From: Sulfuritalea hydrogenivorans sk43H
GTDB lineage: Bacteria; Pseudomonadota; Gammaproteobacteria; Burkholderiales; Rhodocyclaceae
Length of the DNA stretch: 43,862 bases
Assembly (NCBI GenBank): GCA_945870205.1
Contig: CAMBRI010000008.1
Span: forward strand, 1-43,862
Direction: 5' to 3'
Part shown: positions 20,203 to 25,501 of the stretch, piece after piece
How positions within the stretch are numbered: position 1 is the stretch's first letter
Layout of the letters: every line of letters starts with the position of its first letter
The notes under the pieces: model-generated
Database searches by the model: none
What the model was told of the DNA's origin: nothing
The model's input: the letters and a program-made list of their open reading frames with translations, nothing else
Program-made: the position numbers and the translations under genes

Positions 20203-21855
20203 ATGGCAGACTCCGCATCGGCTGCGACACCGTTCCCGATCTCGCTGGAGGCCTTCGGCCGCCTGGGCGGCGGCCAGAAGCTGATCAGTGCGGTCGTGTT
20301 CGCCATGTTCCTGGCGGTCCTGGTAGGAGGTCTGCTGTGGGCGCGCGAACCTTCCTACGCGGTGCTGTTCTCGATCCAGGACGAGAAGGACGGTGGCCAG
20401 ATCGTCGCCGCCCTGGCGCAGCAGAACATTCCCTACCGCTTCAGCGAAGGCGGCCACACGATTCTCGTGCCGCAGGCTGTGGTCCATGACACTCGCCTGC
20501 GCCTGGCCGCGCAGGGCATGCCCAAAGGTGGGCTGGTCGGCTTCGAACTGCTTGAAAACCAGAAGATGGGCATCAGCCAGTTTGCCGAACAGGTCAATTA
20601 TCAGCGCGGGCTGGAAGGCGAACTGGCCCGCTCGATCCAGTCGCTGGCGGCCGTCAAGGGCGCACGCGTGCATCTGGCGATCCCCAAGCAAACCGCCTTC
20701 CTGCGCGACGAGCAGAAAGCCTCCGCCTCGGTGGTGGTGAGCCTTGCACCGGGCCGCAAGCTGGATCCGGCGCAGGTGACGGGCATCGTCAATCTGGTGG
20801 CGTCCAGCGTGCCTCAGCTCGTTCCGGGAAGTGTCAGCGTAATCGATCAGGAGGGCAATCTGGTCTCGCAGCAGAAGGATGTCATGCGTGATGCCGGCCT
20901 CGATCCCGCCCAGATCAAGTACCTGCGCGAAACCGAAGCCGGTTATGCGAGGCGGATTGAAAATATTCTTGTGCCGATCGTGGGTGTGAACAACGTGAGA
21001 GCGCAAGTCACTGCGGACCTCGATTTTTCGCAAACCGACCAGGTGGCTGAAACCTACAAGCCCAACCCGAGCCCCGGCACCGCCATTCGCAGCCAGGCGA
21101 CCGCCGAAACCGCGAGCGGAACACCGCCCGCATCGGGAATTCCCGGAGCACTCAGCAACCAGCCGCCCGGCACCGCCGTAGCGAGCGAGCTTGGCAGTCC
21201 GCCCGCGCCCACAGCGCCGCAGACCGCTGCAGCGGCGGCGGCAGCGGCCGCTGCAGCCCACAATTTCACCAAGAACTCCACGATCAATTATGAAATCGAC
21301 AAGACCATCCGTCATACCAAGAGCGTGCCAGGCAGCATTCGCCGCCTCTCTGTCGCCGTCGTGGTCAACTACCGGAAAGACCTGACAAAGGAAAAGAATC
21401 CGGACAAGGCACCGGCGCTGCCGCTGGCCGAGACCGATATCAAGCTGATCAACGATCTGGCCCGAGAGGCCATGGGCTTCAACAAGGATCGCGGCGATAC
21501 CCTGAATATCGCCAATGCGCCATTTACGGTGATCGAAAAGGAAATCGTGCCCGATGCACCGATCTGGGCCAATGCCGAACTGATTGCCACCCTGAAAGAA
21601 CTGGGCAAATATCTGCTCATATTCGGTGTGGTGTTCTGGTTCTGGACGCGCGTTCTGAAACCGATGCTGGTGCAATTTGCGGCAGCGGCGGAACGCGCCG
21701 CGGAGAGGCAGGCCGAGCAAGCGTCTGAAGGCATGCCGACGGTCGAGCGCCAGTCTTACGAGGGCAAGCTTGCCGCCGCGCGGGAACTGGCGAAACAGGA
21801 TCCGAAAGCCGTCGCCAACATGATCAAGGATTGGGTGGGCGGCGGTGGCCACTGA
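20203..21855 (+). CDS. fliF: Flagellar MS-ring protein FliF
   Basis: 550 residues, the usual FliF length. FliF forms the MS ring in the inner membrane, base of the motor and housing of the export gate. TM1 is about residues 28-47 (ISAVVFAMFLAVLVGGLLWA). The ring-building motifs follow (KGGLVGFELLENQKMGISQFAEQVNYQRGLEGELARSI, with HLAIPKQTAFLRDEQ), then a variable Pro/Ala-rich region with a run of nine Ala. TM2 is about 470-485 (YLLIFGVVFWFWTRVL), and the C-terminal tail (ELAKQDPKAVANMIKDWV) binds FliG. fliG starts inside its last codons. It heads the plus-strand fliFGHIJ-KLMNOPQR block. Confidence 0.97.
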   Translation: MADSASAATPFPISLEAFGRLGGGQKLISAVVFAMFLAVLVGGLLWAREPSYAVLFSIQDEKDGGQIVAALAQQNIPYRFSEGGHTILVPQAVVHDTRLRLAAQGMPKGGLVGFELLENQKMGISQFAEQVNYQRGLEGELARSIQSLAAVKGARVHLAIPKQTAFLRDEQKASASVVVSLAPGRKLDPAQVTGIVNLVASSVPQLVPGSVSVIDQEGNLVSQQKDVMRDAGLDPAQIKYLRETEAGYARRIENILVPIVGVNNVRAQVTADLDFSQTDQVAETYKPNPSPGTAIRSQATAETASGTPPASGIPGALSNQPPGTAVASELGSPPAPTAPQTAAAAAAAAAAAHNFTKNSTINYEIDKTIRHTKSVPGSIRRLSVAVVVNYRKDLTKEKNPDKAPALPLAETDIKLINDLAREAMGFNKDRGDTLNIANAPFTVIEKEIVPDAPIWANAELIATLKELGKYLLIFGVVFWFWTRVLKPMLVQFAAAAERAAERQAEQASEGMPTVERQSYEGKLAAARELAKQDPKAVANMIKDWVGGGGH

Positions 21856-22849
21856 AAGCGAGGGCCTCGAGAAAAGCGCCATCCTGCTGCTCTCGCTCGG
21901 CCAGAACGAAGCCGCCGAGATACTGAAGAACCTCGGACCCAAAGAAGTGCAGAAACTCGGCCACGCCATGGCCGGGCTGAAAGCAGTGGCGCGCGACCGC
22001 ATCGAGTCGGTGATCGACGAGTTCACCAAGCAGACCGCCAAGGGCGCACCGGTGGCGGTCGACAACGAAACCATCAAGGCCATGCTGACCAAGGCCTTGG
22101 GCGACGACCGCGCCGCGGGCCTCATCAGCCGCATCATGTCGGGCAACGACACCGCCGGCATCGAGGGTCTGAAGTGGATGGATGCGGCCAGCGTCGCCGA
22201 TCTGATTCGCAATGAGCACCCGCAAATCATCGCTACCATTCTTGTGCACCTGGAGTTCGACCATGCCGGTGACATCCTCAAGTGCTTCTCCGATCGACTG
22301 CGCAATGACGTGCTGCTGCGGGTCGCCACTCTCGACGGGGTGCAGCCTACGGCCTTGCGCGAGCTGAATGAAGCGCTGACGCGCATCCTTGCCAGTGCAT
22401 CTGGAAACATCAAGAAGACGGCCATGGGTGGCATTCGCCACGCGGCGGAAATCCTCAATTTTGTCGGCCAGTCGAACGAGACGTCGATCATCGACAATGT
22501 TCGTGAATACGATGCCGACCTGGCGCAAAAAATTCTCGACGAAATGTTTATCTTCGAGAACCTTCTCGATGTTGATGATCGCGGCATTCAACTGCTGCTG
22601 CGCGAAGTTCAGTCGGATGCCCTGATCATCGCCCTGAAAGGCGCATCGCCGGAGCTGCGCGACAAGATTTTCCGCAATATGTCGCAGCGGGCGGCAGAAA
22701 TGCTCCGGGAAGACCTCGAATCGAAAGGCCCGGTACGCCTTTCTGAGGTTGAAAACGAGCAGAAGGAAATCCTCAAGGTCGCGCGTCGCCTGGCCGAGGA
22801 AGGACAGATCCAGCTCGGTGGCGGCGGCGAGGGCGATTCCTTCGTCTGA
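21845..22849 (+). CDS. fliG: Flagellar motor switch protein FliG
   Basis: 334 residues, full length. FliG links the MS ring to FliM and takes torque from the stator. Recognisable parts are the N-terminal domain (ESEGLEKSAILLLSLGQNEAAEILKNLGPKEVQKLG), the middle-domain motif NEHPQIIATILVHL with the EHPQ FliM site, and the C-terminal torque helix (LIIALKGASPELRDKIFRNMSQRAAEMLREDLESKGPVRLSEVE) with charged residues facing MotA. It uses a GTG start that overlaps the fliF stop by 11 bases, so the genes are translationally coupled. The next flagellar gene, fliH, is separated by an unusually long 571-base gap, and a small hairpin (22852-22867) follows the fliG stop. Confidence 0.97.
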   Translation: MATESEGLEKSAILLLSLGQNEAAEILKNLGPKEVQKLGHAMAGLKAVARDRIESVIDEFTKQTAKGAPVAVDNETIKAMLTKALGDDRAAGLISRIMSGNDTAGIEGLKWMDAASVADLIRNEHPQIIATILVHLEFDHAGDILKCFSDRLRNDVLLRVATLDGVQPTALRELNEALTRILASASGNIKKTAMGGIRHAAEILNFVGQSNETSIIDNVREYDADLAQKILDEMFIFENLLDVDDRGIQLLLREVQSDALIIALKGASPELRDKIFRNMSQRAAEMLREDLESKGPVRLSEVENEQKEILKVARRLAEEGQIQLGGGGEGDSFV

Positions 22850-23420
22850 TCCCCGCAGGCACGCGGGATTCCTCCCAATCCGAACGCATTGCCGGCACCG
22901 GAGCTACCGGCACGCAGCCGATGAAGCGCGAAGCTGCTGAATAGGGCCGCTGACACCGCATCCGATCCACGCATCGGCAGTACGATTTGTGGCTTCGAAA
23001 ACGGCACCCAGCCCTGACAGCTGCGTCGAACCTGGAAAGCCACCGCCAAATCCAGCGCCAACGTGCCGGAAAGCCAGGTTTCCGACATTGGAAAAGCGTG
23101 ACGCCACAAATGCGCGGGCGCTGCCTGCTGTGATATAACCAAAGCGATATTGCTGCATCGCAGCATTGAGGCGCCGTCTCTGCCCAGTTCGGGTTTCGCG
23201 CCAATCGGGCATTTATTGCCCCCTGGATAGCCTCCGACTACGTAGAAACCGCAGTTTGCCGCGCAATCTACGGATAAACAAATCGCGTGCACTTTGAGAC
23301 TATTACTCTAAAGGGAAGACGAACCTGCCGTCGCCCCGGTTTGCTTGACGATACTCAGAATTCACTGCCAATAGCAACGACGAGCGCCATGCGCGCGATC
23401 ACTTCAGCGAGGACCCGAAA
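22850..23420. other. 571-base fliG-fliH gap rich in inverted repeats
   Basis: fliG and fliH are normally adjacent, so this gap is odd. It holds several short inverted repeats: CCCGC/GCGGG at 22852-22867 right after fliG, TGCCGG/CCGGCA at 22890-22912, AACCTGG/CCAGGTT at 23029-23080, and TGCTGC/GCAGCA at 23151-23165. A 9-base direct repeat, GGAAAGCCA, starts at 23034 and 23068. The minus strand has a 102-codon open frame (22904-23212) containing RFGYITAG and GAGFGGGFPG, with no ribosome site and no family I recognise. A weak sigma-28-like pair occurs at 23309-23334. I cannot say whether this is an inserted repeat, a gene relic or a structured RNA. Confidence 0.55.
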
Positions 23421-24113
23421 ATTCTTGCACCACCACCCAAAACCCCGCTTGCTACCTGGGAGCCCTGGGAACCGGTCAACTTCAATAACGATGCTGCTGC
23501 TACCGGACCCGGGCAGATCAGGACCGCCGCGAACCAGCGGGTGCCCCATCATGCGGGTGACGAGGAAGCCAACCGCTTGCGCGAAGCCGCAGGACGGGAG
23601 GGCTATCGGGCGGGTTTCGAGTCGGCGCGCGAGGAAGGTCTGCGAGCCGGCCGCGAGGCCGCACAGGCAGAGGGGCGCCAACTTGCCGTGCAACTGGCGC
23701 AGGCCATTTCAGGCTTTGAGGCAGGCGTTGCCCAACTCGAGCAGACCGTGGCTGATGATCTCCTCGCTCTCGCCCTCGAAATCGCCCGCAAGGTCAGTCA
23801 CCAGGCAGTCGCGGCACAGCCGCTGGTGATTCTGGATGTTATACGCGAAGCCCTGACGCAACTGCCCTTGCAGCACGCCATGATTCACCTCAACCCCGAT
23901 GATGCTGCTCTGGTGCGTGCCAACGCCGGCGAGCATCTGACACGCGCCGGCCACCGCATCCTGGAAGACCTGCATCTCGAACGCGGTGACGTAGTTATCG
24001 ACGCCGGCGGGGCCCATCTGGACGCGCGCCTGGCCACCCGCTGGCAGCGTGTCATTGCCTCGCTCAACCAAGACACGCCGTGGCTTGCGGCCGACGAGGC
24101 GGGGCAATCATGA
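23421..24113 (+). CDS. fliH: Flagellar export ATPase regulator FliH, likely ATT start
   Basis: FliH binds FliI and holds it near the C ring. The body is typical: Glu/Arg/Ala-rich heptad helix ([26 protein letters not shown] with GxxxG-like spacing), then [21 protein letters not shown] and the C-terminal domain [11 protein letters not shown]... [18 protein letters not shown]. The frame is open back to a TGA at 23346 but has no ATG, GTG or TTG before GTG 23541, which would delete about 40 residues. At 23421 an ATT follows GAGGA by 7 bases. The resulting N-terminus [21 protein letters not shown] places K7, L10, W16-E17-P18 and F21 where FliH proteins usually have them. The product is 230 residues, normal for FliH. 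The stop overlaps fliI. Confidence 0.85.
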
Positions 24114-25501
24114 ACCCACGCCCGCTCGCCGACTACCTTGCTCAGTGCCGCACCCAGGTGGCAGCTGCCCAAAGCTTTCAACTCGCCGGTCGGCTGACCC
24201 GCATCAACGGCCTTGTCATGGAGGCCTCGGGGCTAAAACTGCCGCTGGGTGCCGCGCTGCAGATCCAGACCCCTGGCGACGGCATGGTTGAAGCGGAAGT
24301 CGTCGGTTTTGCCGGCGATCGCCTGTTCATGATGCCCGCCGAAGATGTTTACGGATTATCACCCGGCGCGCTGGTACTGCCGCAGGAGCCACCGCCCCAG
24401 ATCCCGCTTCTCGGCCAAAGCACGCCGGTCAAGCGCCGCGCGCGCGACCGTACCAAACACCTGCCTGTAGGCGACGAACTGCTGGGCCGGGTGGTCGATG
24501 GCAACGGCCGTCCGCTCGACAGCCTCGGCCCTTTGGTTACCCGCCACCTGCATTCGCTTGCGAGCAGACCACTCAACCCCTTGCTGCGGGAACCCATTCG
24601 TCACACCATGGACGTCGGCATCCGCGCCATCAACGGCTTGCTGACCGTGGGCCGCGGGCAGCGTCTGGGTCTGTTTTCCGGATCGGGTGTGGGCAAGAGC
24701 GTACTCCTGGGCATGATGGCGCGCTATACCGAGGCCGACCGAATCGTGGTCGGATTGATCGGCGAACGCGGCCGCGAGGTCCAGGAATTCATCGACCAGA
24801 ATCTCGGCATTGAAGGCCTCGCCCGCGCTGTCGTCGTGGCAGCCCCTTCTGATGTTAGCCCCCTGCTGCGCCTGCAAGGCGCAGCCTATGCCACCGCAAT
24901 CGCCGAACACTTCCGCGACGAGGGGCATCATGTACTGTTGATCATGGATTCGCTGACCCGCTACGCGATGGCGCAACGGGAAATCGCCCTGGCAATCGGC
25001 GAGCCGCCCGTTACCCGTGGCTACCCGCCTTCGGTATTCGCCCGCCTGCCGCAACTGGTCGAGCGTGCCGGCAACGGCCCCCCGGGAGGCGGTTCGATCA
25101 CGGCGTTCTACACGGTACTGACGGAGGGGGACGACCCGCAGGATCCGATTGCCGATGCCGCCCGTGCCATCCTTGACGGCCATATCTTGCTCAGCCGGGA
25201 GTTGGCTGACGCCGGGCATTACCCCGCGATTGATATCGAACAATCCATCTCGCGACTGGTGAACCAGCTCAACACGCCGGAGCAACTCGAACTGGCACGC
25301 CAGTTCAAACAGCTCTACGCACGCTACCAGCGCGCCCGCGACCTGATCGCCGTCGGCGCTTATTCCCCAGGCTCCGACATGTTGCTCGACCGCGCGATTG
25401 CGCTATATCCCAGGCTCGAAGCCTTCCTCCAGCAATCAATTGGCGAGCGCGCAGACACCAACACCTCGCGGCGGCGCCTCGATGAGCTGTTCGTGCCATG
25501 A
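24110..25501 (+). CDS. fliI: Flagellum-specific ATPase FliI
   Basis: 463 residues. FliI is the hexameric ATPase of the flagellar type III export apparatus, related to F1-beta. Visible are Walker [12 protein letters not shown] (GSGVGKS at 191-197), the [11 protein letters not shown] segment, Walker B-like [26 protein letters not shown] and the conserved [21 protein letters not shown]. The ATG at 24110 overlaps the fliH stop in ATGA and gives the standard N-terminus; a start further upstream is not needed. It is followed 41 bases later by fliJ. Family assignment is certain. Virulence-type SctN ATPases are similar but the neighbours decide for FliI. Confidence 0.98.

Follow-up and report, generated by a model that had tools for sequence, protein, structure and literature searches.

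A probable inherited AUU start codon for the flagellar export gene fliH in part of one bacterial genus

Where does translation of fliH begin when its reading frame offers no canonical start codon at the place where the protein should begin? The question arises in a stretch of 43,862 nucleotides from Sulfuritalea hydrogenivorans sk43H (hereafter the window), which belongs to a draft genome of 391 contigs that is 85% complete. A FliH-family gene lies here between fliG and fliI, and its frame encodes a FliH domain (Pfam PF02108, E 8.1e-31, 107.1 bits against a curated cut-off of 24.1). The frame is open from 23349, directly after a TGA at 23346-23348, to a stop at 24111-24113, and the first ATG, GTG or TTG after the TGA is the GTG at 23541. 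The original prediction, which had described this lack of a canonical start, proposed an ATT at 23421 with GAGGA seven bases 5' of it, and placed Lys7, Leu10, Trp16-Glu17-Pro18 and Phe21 at positions typical of the family. The coordinates are borne out, the same seven-nucleotide spacing is found in the sequence, and the residues fall as stated when counted from the ATT. With start codons listed as cognate or near-cognate (ATG, GTG, TTG, CTG, ATT, ATC, ATA, ACG, AGG and AAG), no such codon other than this ATT occurs in frame from the upstream stop to Trp13, the conserved tryptophan that opens a WxxW motif 12 codons further on. From the comparisons described below, we consider it very probable that fliH is translated from an inherited AUU start in this lineage. 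A gap of 571 nt separates the fliG stop (22849) from the ATT; unmentioned in the original prediction, it belongs to the same phenomenon. The features of the region are collected in Table 1.

Table 1. Features of the fliG-fliH-fliI region, in window coordinates.
Feature	Position	Strand	Basis
fliG, GTG start as listed, 5' of the opened junction	21845..22849	+	Pfam FliG_C, FliG_M, FliG_N; ORF list
Promoter-like repeated element 5' of fliH, flagellar/chemotaxis-linked (putative)	23238..23303	+	Promoter function inferred
Shine-Dalgarno GAGGA	23409..23413	+	Sequence; duplex energy -6.5 kcal/mol
ATT, proposed fliH start codon	23421..23423	+	Present in 10/20 genus genomes; codon conservation
fliH coding sequence, proposed ATT to stop, 230 aa	23421..24113	+	Pfam FliH E 8.1e-31; translation
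WxxW motif (Trp13, Trp16), FliH N-terminus landmark	23457..23468	+	Relatives; Salmonella Trp-7/Trp-10 equivalence inferred from spacing
GTG, first canonical in-frame codon, rival start	23541..23543	+	SD -3.0 kcal/mol (weak), spacing 11 nt
fliI, ATG overlapping the fliH stop	24110..25501	+	Sequence; ORF list; tblastn of relatives

Searching 31 genus genomes, the window's own included, at the protein level gave a fliH match in 20, and the loci were oriented before their 5' regions were read. In this comparison with relatives, which the original prediction had proposed, an ATT 12 or 13 codons before the Trp is common to ten of the 20 genomes (G000, the window's own, and G001, G006, G009, G016, G018, G020, G041, G042 and G044). 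Four carry ATG instead (G008, G015, G019 and G046, the last with fliH matches split over two contigs in an assembly marked as 10% contaminated). In the remaining six (G002, G007, G017, G023, G024 and G043) the junction is closed, the ATG lying 0-6 nt from where the fliG stop ends. The original prediction had also named an outcome that would speak against it, an ATG elsewhere in relatives combined with a frameshift; the four genomes without ATT use a nearby ATG in the same frame, and a frameshift in FliH downstream of the ATT, looked for in the genus genomes, was not seen. Similarly, no stop codon occurs inside fliH in the genus matches. The second Trp of the WxxW motif is replaced by Leu in G001, G016 and G044.

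The surroundings of the ATT vary among the ten genomes. The window's own genome, G001 and G009 are without a canonical start for up to 40 codons before the Trp, and in G016 and G044 the sole canonical start is a TTG 35 codons before the Trp, inside the repeated element discussed below. A 1-nt indel 48 nt 5' of the ATT distinguishes G001 from G016 and G044, and the frame above the indel is therefore not common to them. In each of the other five, a canonical codon stands at most five codons away from the ATT. For instance, G018 has an ATG two codons 5' of the ATT, and its Shine-Dalgarno pairing is best for the ATT (-4.9 at 7 nt, versus -2.1 at 3 nt from the ATG), while in G006 and G041 a TTG immediately follows the ATT and the same Shine-Dalgarno lies 10 nt from the TTG versus 7 nt from the ATT; G041 has a further ATG five codons 5', with a poor Shine-Dalgarno. 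In G020 and G042 an ATG stands two codons 3' of the ATT, the Shine-Dalgarno energy being near zero at the ATT and better at the ATG. Judged from these frames, ATT is forced as the predicted start in five genomes of three lineages, is a likely or possible start in three more, and has probably been replaced by ATG in G020 and G042.

A conserved ATT could also be an ordinary isoleucine codon, and several properties bear on this. Over the portions of fliG, fliH and fliI that matched at 13 loci, isoleucine is written 472 times as ATC, 115 times as ATT (19%) and 24 times as ATA. Among the columns in which isoleucine is invariant across the ten genomes, none of 19 in FliI is ATT throughout, and of five in FliH only one is, the start column itself. 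The ATT is conserved beyond ordinary isoleucine usage, and its conservation in relatives makes the pattern more than chance. Duplex energies, all computed with an assumed anti-Shine-Dalgarno sequence, average -4.4 kcal/mol at the ten ATT sites versus -2.2 at 75 internal ATT codons and -2.6 kcal/mol at 409 internal ATT or ATC codons; eight of the ten sites reach -4.0 kcal/mol or better, the exceptions being G020 and G042. With genomes treated as independent, resampling gave 5e-5 against internal ATT and 0.003 against ATT or ATC for the ten sites, and 5e-4 and 0.009 when each lineage contributed a single site.

Substitution patterns differ between the two sides of the ATT. Counted by codon position, G006 and G041 differ by 12/10/34 substitutions downstream of the ATT and 11/15/7 upstream, and G020 and G042 by 20/16/32 downstream and 22/20/15 upstream; the contrast is weaker for G001 and G016 (8/9/16 downstream). 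Third positions change most downstream of the ATT in all five pairs (G001/G016, G001/G044, G006/G041, G020/G042 and G016/G044), and the stretch upstream of it shows a non-coding pattern. Change is rapid in the N-terminal half of FliH, where three of the five pairs have more nonsynonymous than synonymous codon differences over the first 150 codons (16 to 12 in G001/G016, 23 to 21 in G006/G041 and 33 to 23 in G020/G042). Conservation, the placement of the Shine-Dalgarno and the non-coding pattern upstream together give good support to the start at ATT that had been predicted. As a positive control we read infC in the same manner. An IF3_N domain was found in 24 of the 31 genomes, with none found in the window's own, incomplete genome, and all 24 loci (L076-L099) contain GGAG, an in-frame stop and directly after it ACC ATC GCT, which makes the ATC start of infC evident. 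The genus thus evidently possesses another AUN start, detectable by the same kind of reading.

In 27 of 27 other-genus loci an ATG precedes the WxxW Trp by 4-17 codons, the distance being 9-13 codons at 22 loci, and the accepted ATG nearest the Trp falls between -4 and +105 nt from the fliG stop. These 27 were drawn from the best 30 of 173 matching genomes, leaving out the window's own locus (L046) and two counted within the genus (L049 and L050, which are G002 and G008); a set of more remote loci (L016-L028 and L045) was inspected outside this tally. The ATT thus occupies the site where other genera have their ATG, one substitution away, and among the loci examined the putative ATT start is restricted to part of one genus. 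The suggestion that a mutation had removed an ATG therefore fits as an account of origin; as a recent lesion it does not fit, because the ATT is present in ten genomes.

The altered start codon is accompanied by a promoter-like element 5' of fliH. A query comprising window positions 23225-23310, of which positions 14-79 constitute a promoter-like element, matched once in the window and in 19 of the 31 genus genomes, in 18 of those at more than one place. Leaving aside the six closed-junction genomes, in none of which it precedes fliH, the element stands just 5' of fliH in 13 of the other 14 (the exception is G015). When 22820-23480 was compared with the window's own genome, only the part around 23231-23304 recurred, at nine other places. 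The dispersed element measures 45-66 bp and has the core ACCGCAGTTTG-CGCG-AA-ACGGATAAACAA, often with TTTGAGA-TAT after it.

At 37 loci with copies (L030-L038 and L101-L128), an open frame follows the element in 25 and none in 12 by the rule applied; some of these frames are fliH. Pfam analysis of seven frames 3' of copies identified three chemoreceptor-like proteins, one CheR, one lone receiver domain, one sub-threshold Cache domain and one LuxR-type regulator. From this company we infer that the element may be a promoter or activator site for flagellar and chemotaxis genes. We also considered that mobile DNA had inserted between fliG and fliH, and prefer a promoter-like site over a mobile repeat because the copies precede chemotaxis genes. 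Presence and absence gave no tie between the element and FlhDC across the genus, FlhC being found in 28 of the 31 genomes, including those without the element. Separately, the element is perhaps the promoter of the genus's flagellar regulon.

In five genomes (G001, G016, G018, G042 and G044) the stretch fetched around fliH contains no fliG match, and fliH therefore leads its own gene block there. At L131, L132, L133, L134 and L136, in five genomes, nothing matching fliF or fliG was found 5' of the fliHIJK block in the stretch fetched, the flagellar operon being split between fliG and fliH. Two ideas about the leader were set aside. A conserved hairpin masking the Shine-Dalgarno and the ATT can be folded in the window leader, but the whole-leader z-score is -0.22, local z-scores in the ten genomes range from -1.8 to +1.6, and folding the ungapped consensus yields no structure. 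A search of the leader for known RNA families gave a sole sub-threshold match, to a human lncRNA family.

The same evidence bears on other accounts of how FliH might be made. It is quite improbable that FliH begins at GTG 23541, or at some other codon downstream, and is made without the WxxW N-terminus: although no canonical codon precedes this GTG in the open frame of the window's own genome, its Shine-Dalgarno is weak and sits at the edge of acceptable spacing (-3.0 kcal/mol at 11 nt), the N-terminal stretch of FliH is recognisably conserved, and the first canonical codons lie at +246 (G001), +153 (G009), +279 (G016) and +54 (G044) from the ATT, so scattered that there is no common downstream start place. 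Translation entering from upstream, through a longer ORF, a leader ORF with a frameshift, or coupling, would suit the frames that stay open some way upstream in several genomes, such as G020 and G042 with their far-upstream ATG. It is nevertheless very improbable, given the lack of a third-position excess in the upstream counts of G006/G041 and G020/G042, the 1-nt indel between G001 and G016/G044, and the different frame of the leader ORF that begins at GTG 23287 in the own genome. An assembly or sequencing error, or a pseudogene, might be suspected in a draft as fragmented and incomplete as this one, yet ten separate genomes have the same ATT, the FliH frame runs without interruption through the genus matches, and third positions change most downstream of the ATT in five pairs, which leaves this account a negligible probability.

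Why the codon is ATT is a separate matter. We give about an even chance to the view that AUU is a start without regulatory meaning, ATG having changed to ATT when the junction was remodeled, with the Shine-Dalgarno and promoter compensating and inertia doing the rest; this view contests only the reason for AUU and leaves the start itself in place. The ATG in G008, G015, G019 and G046 implies that the group can accommodate a strong start, and G020 and G042 have seemingly moved to ATG. On the other hand, ATT has been kept in ten genomes though ATG is one substitution away, and internal isoleucine is encoded by ATT in only 19% of cases. Weak-by-design or IF3-sensitive translation, one of the alternatives in the original prediction, would be compatible with these sequences and has precedents. 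Selective maintenance of AUU as a throttle, IF3-sensitive, keeping FliH, the anchor and restraint of the FliI export ATPase, scarce or matched to FliI and tying flagellar export to the state of the translation machinery, is a more tentative proposal, which we hold possible.

For the AUU start itself, we propose the following course of events. A promoter-like element and a leader would have come to lie 5' of fliH, which would thereby have been parted from fliG and probably heads its own transcript. The site of the ATG in other genera is now ATT, which initiator tRNA would use with the aid of a well-placed Shine-Dalgarno and which has been retained in most species of the lineage. AUU (ATT) starts are known in few bacterial genes and tend toward low protein output. 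The fliH start may be inefficient and open to discrimination by IF3, as for infC, and such a weak start would limit the amount of FliH and perhaps fix the FliH:FliI ratio. In a reconstituted system, according to the available text, weak third-base pairs, including AUU with anticodon CAU, gave low output (PMC10158994). By analogy, a fliH gene that begins with AUU and overlaps fliI could yield little FliH. The accessible part of another study reports that FliH suppresses the ATPase of the FliH-FliI complex and that Trp-7 and Trp-10 of Salmonella FliH contact FliN and FlhA (PMC9114704). Judging by its spacing, the WxxW motif is likely the counterpart of this Trp pair, and a start at GTG 23541 would remove it.

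Non-canonical starts described elsewhere offer points of comparison. The infC gene starts with ATT in E. coli and ATC in Streptomyces, as stated in the available part of PMC5472188. Like fliH, it combines an AUN start with a Shine-Dalgarno and is conserved within a clade. Unlike fliH, it encodes a product that represses its own start, a feedback loop. We know of no link between FliH and IF3. The same portion of PMC5472188 describes Streptomyces sigR, with a GTC start repressed by IF3; it too comes first in a pair of genes with mutually binding products, with stoichiometry set in the case of sigR, but it is a stress regulator and its GTC start is backed by genetics, whereas the fliH start is predicted from sequence. 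In Staphylococcus, cvfC1 has an AUU start that is conserved with its Shine-Dalgarno across species, as proposed here for fliH, according to the accessible text of PMC13009471; there, however, the start belongs to a 61-aa protein encoded by the first gene of another operon and is backed by ribosome profiling and reporters. That text also cites E. coli pcnB, whose AUU start limits expression and whose product, unlike FliH, is a poly(A) polymerase. The AUU start of Borrelia burgdorferi pncA, as far as the available text of PMC13398362 goes, was likewise missed by databases so that a needed N-terminus was truncated; pncA differs in being an enzyme gene of another phylum with genetics, biochemistry and structure behind it. 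The fliH gene becomes a candidate to join infC, pcnB, pncA and cvfC1 among AUU-start genes. In the literature searched, where coverage of subscription journals was thin, we found no earlier report of a non-canonical fliH start or of IF3-type start control on a flagellar export gene.

Gene callers limited to ATG, GTG and TTG miss AUU starts; in this case they would cut off the N-terminus of FliH together with its Trp pair, the likely counterpart of the FliN- and FlhA-contacting tryptophans of Salmonella. If the weak start is functional, the dose of FliH or the FliH:FliI ratio would be set in nature by codon choice. The genus also forms an evolutionary series, from ATG at a closed fliG-fliH junction to an opened junction that carries ATT or ATG and a promoter-like element of its own. 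In a FliH+FliI tree of 19 genus loci and three other-genus loci, the opened-junction species separate from all others with support 91. Within them inner nodes are partly weak (support 36-54), and G008 and G019, with ATG, nest with G009, G006 and G041, with ATT, at support 100, so at least one start-codon change took place inside the opened group. The six closed-junction species (L007, L008, L009, L013, L014 and L042) group with the other-genus locus L051 at support 100.

Two further observations concern flagella in the genus at large. No fliH match was found in 11 of the 31 genomes (G003, G004, G005, G010, G011, G012, G013, G014, G021, G022 and G045), several of which are nearly complete and all of which have FlhC; some of these species seem to have lost flagella while the regulator stayed. 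The position of the six closed-junction species apart from the window's group (L001) hints at a second, possibly transferred, flagellar cluster within the genus.
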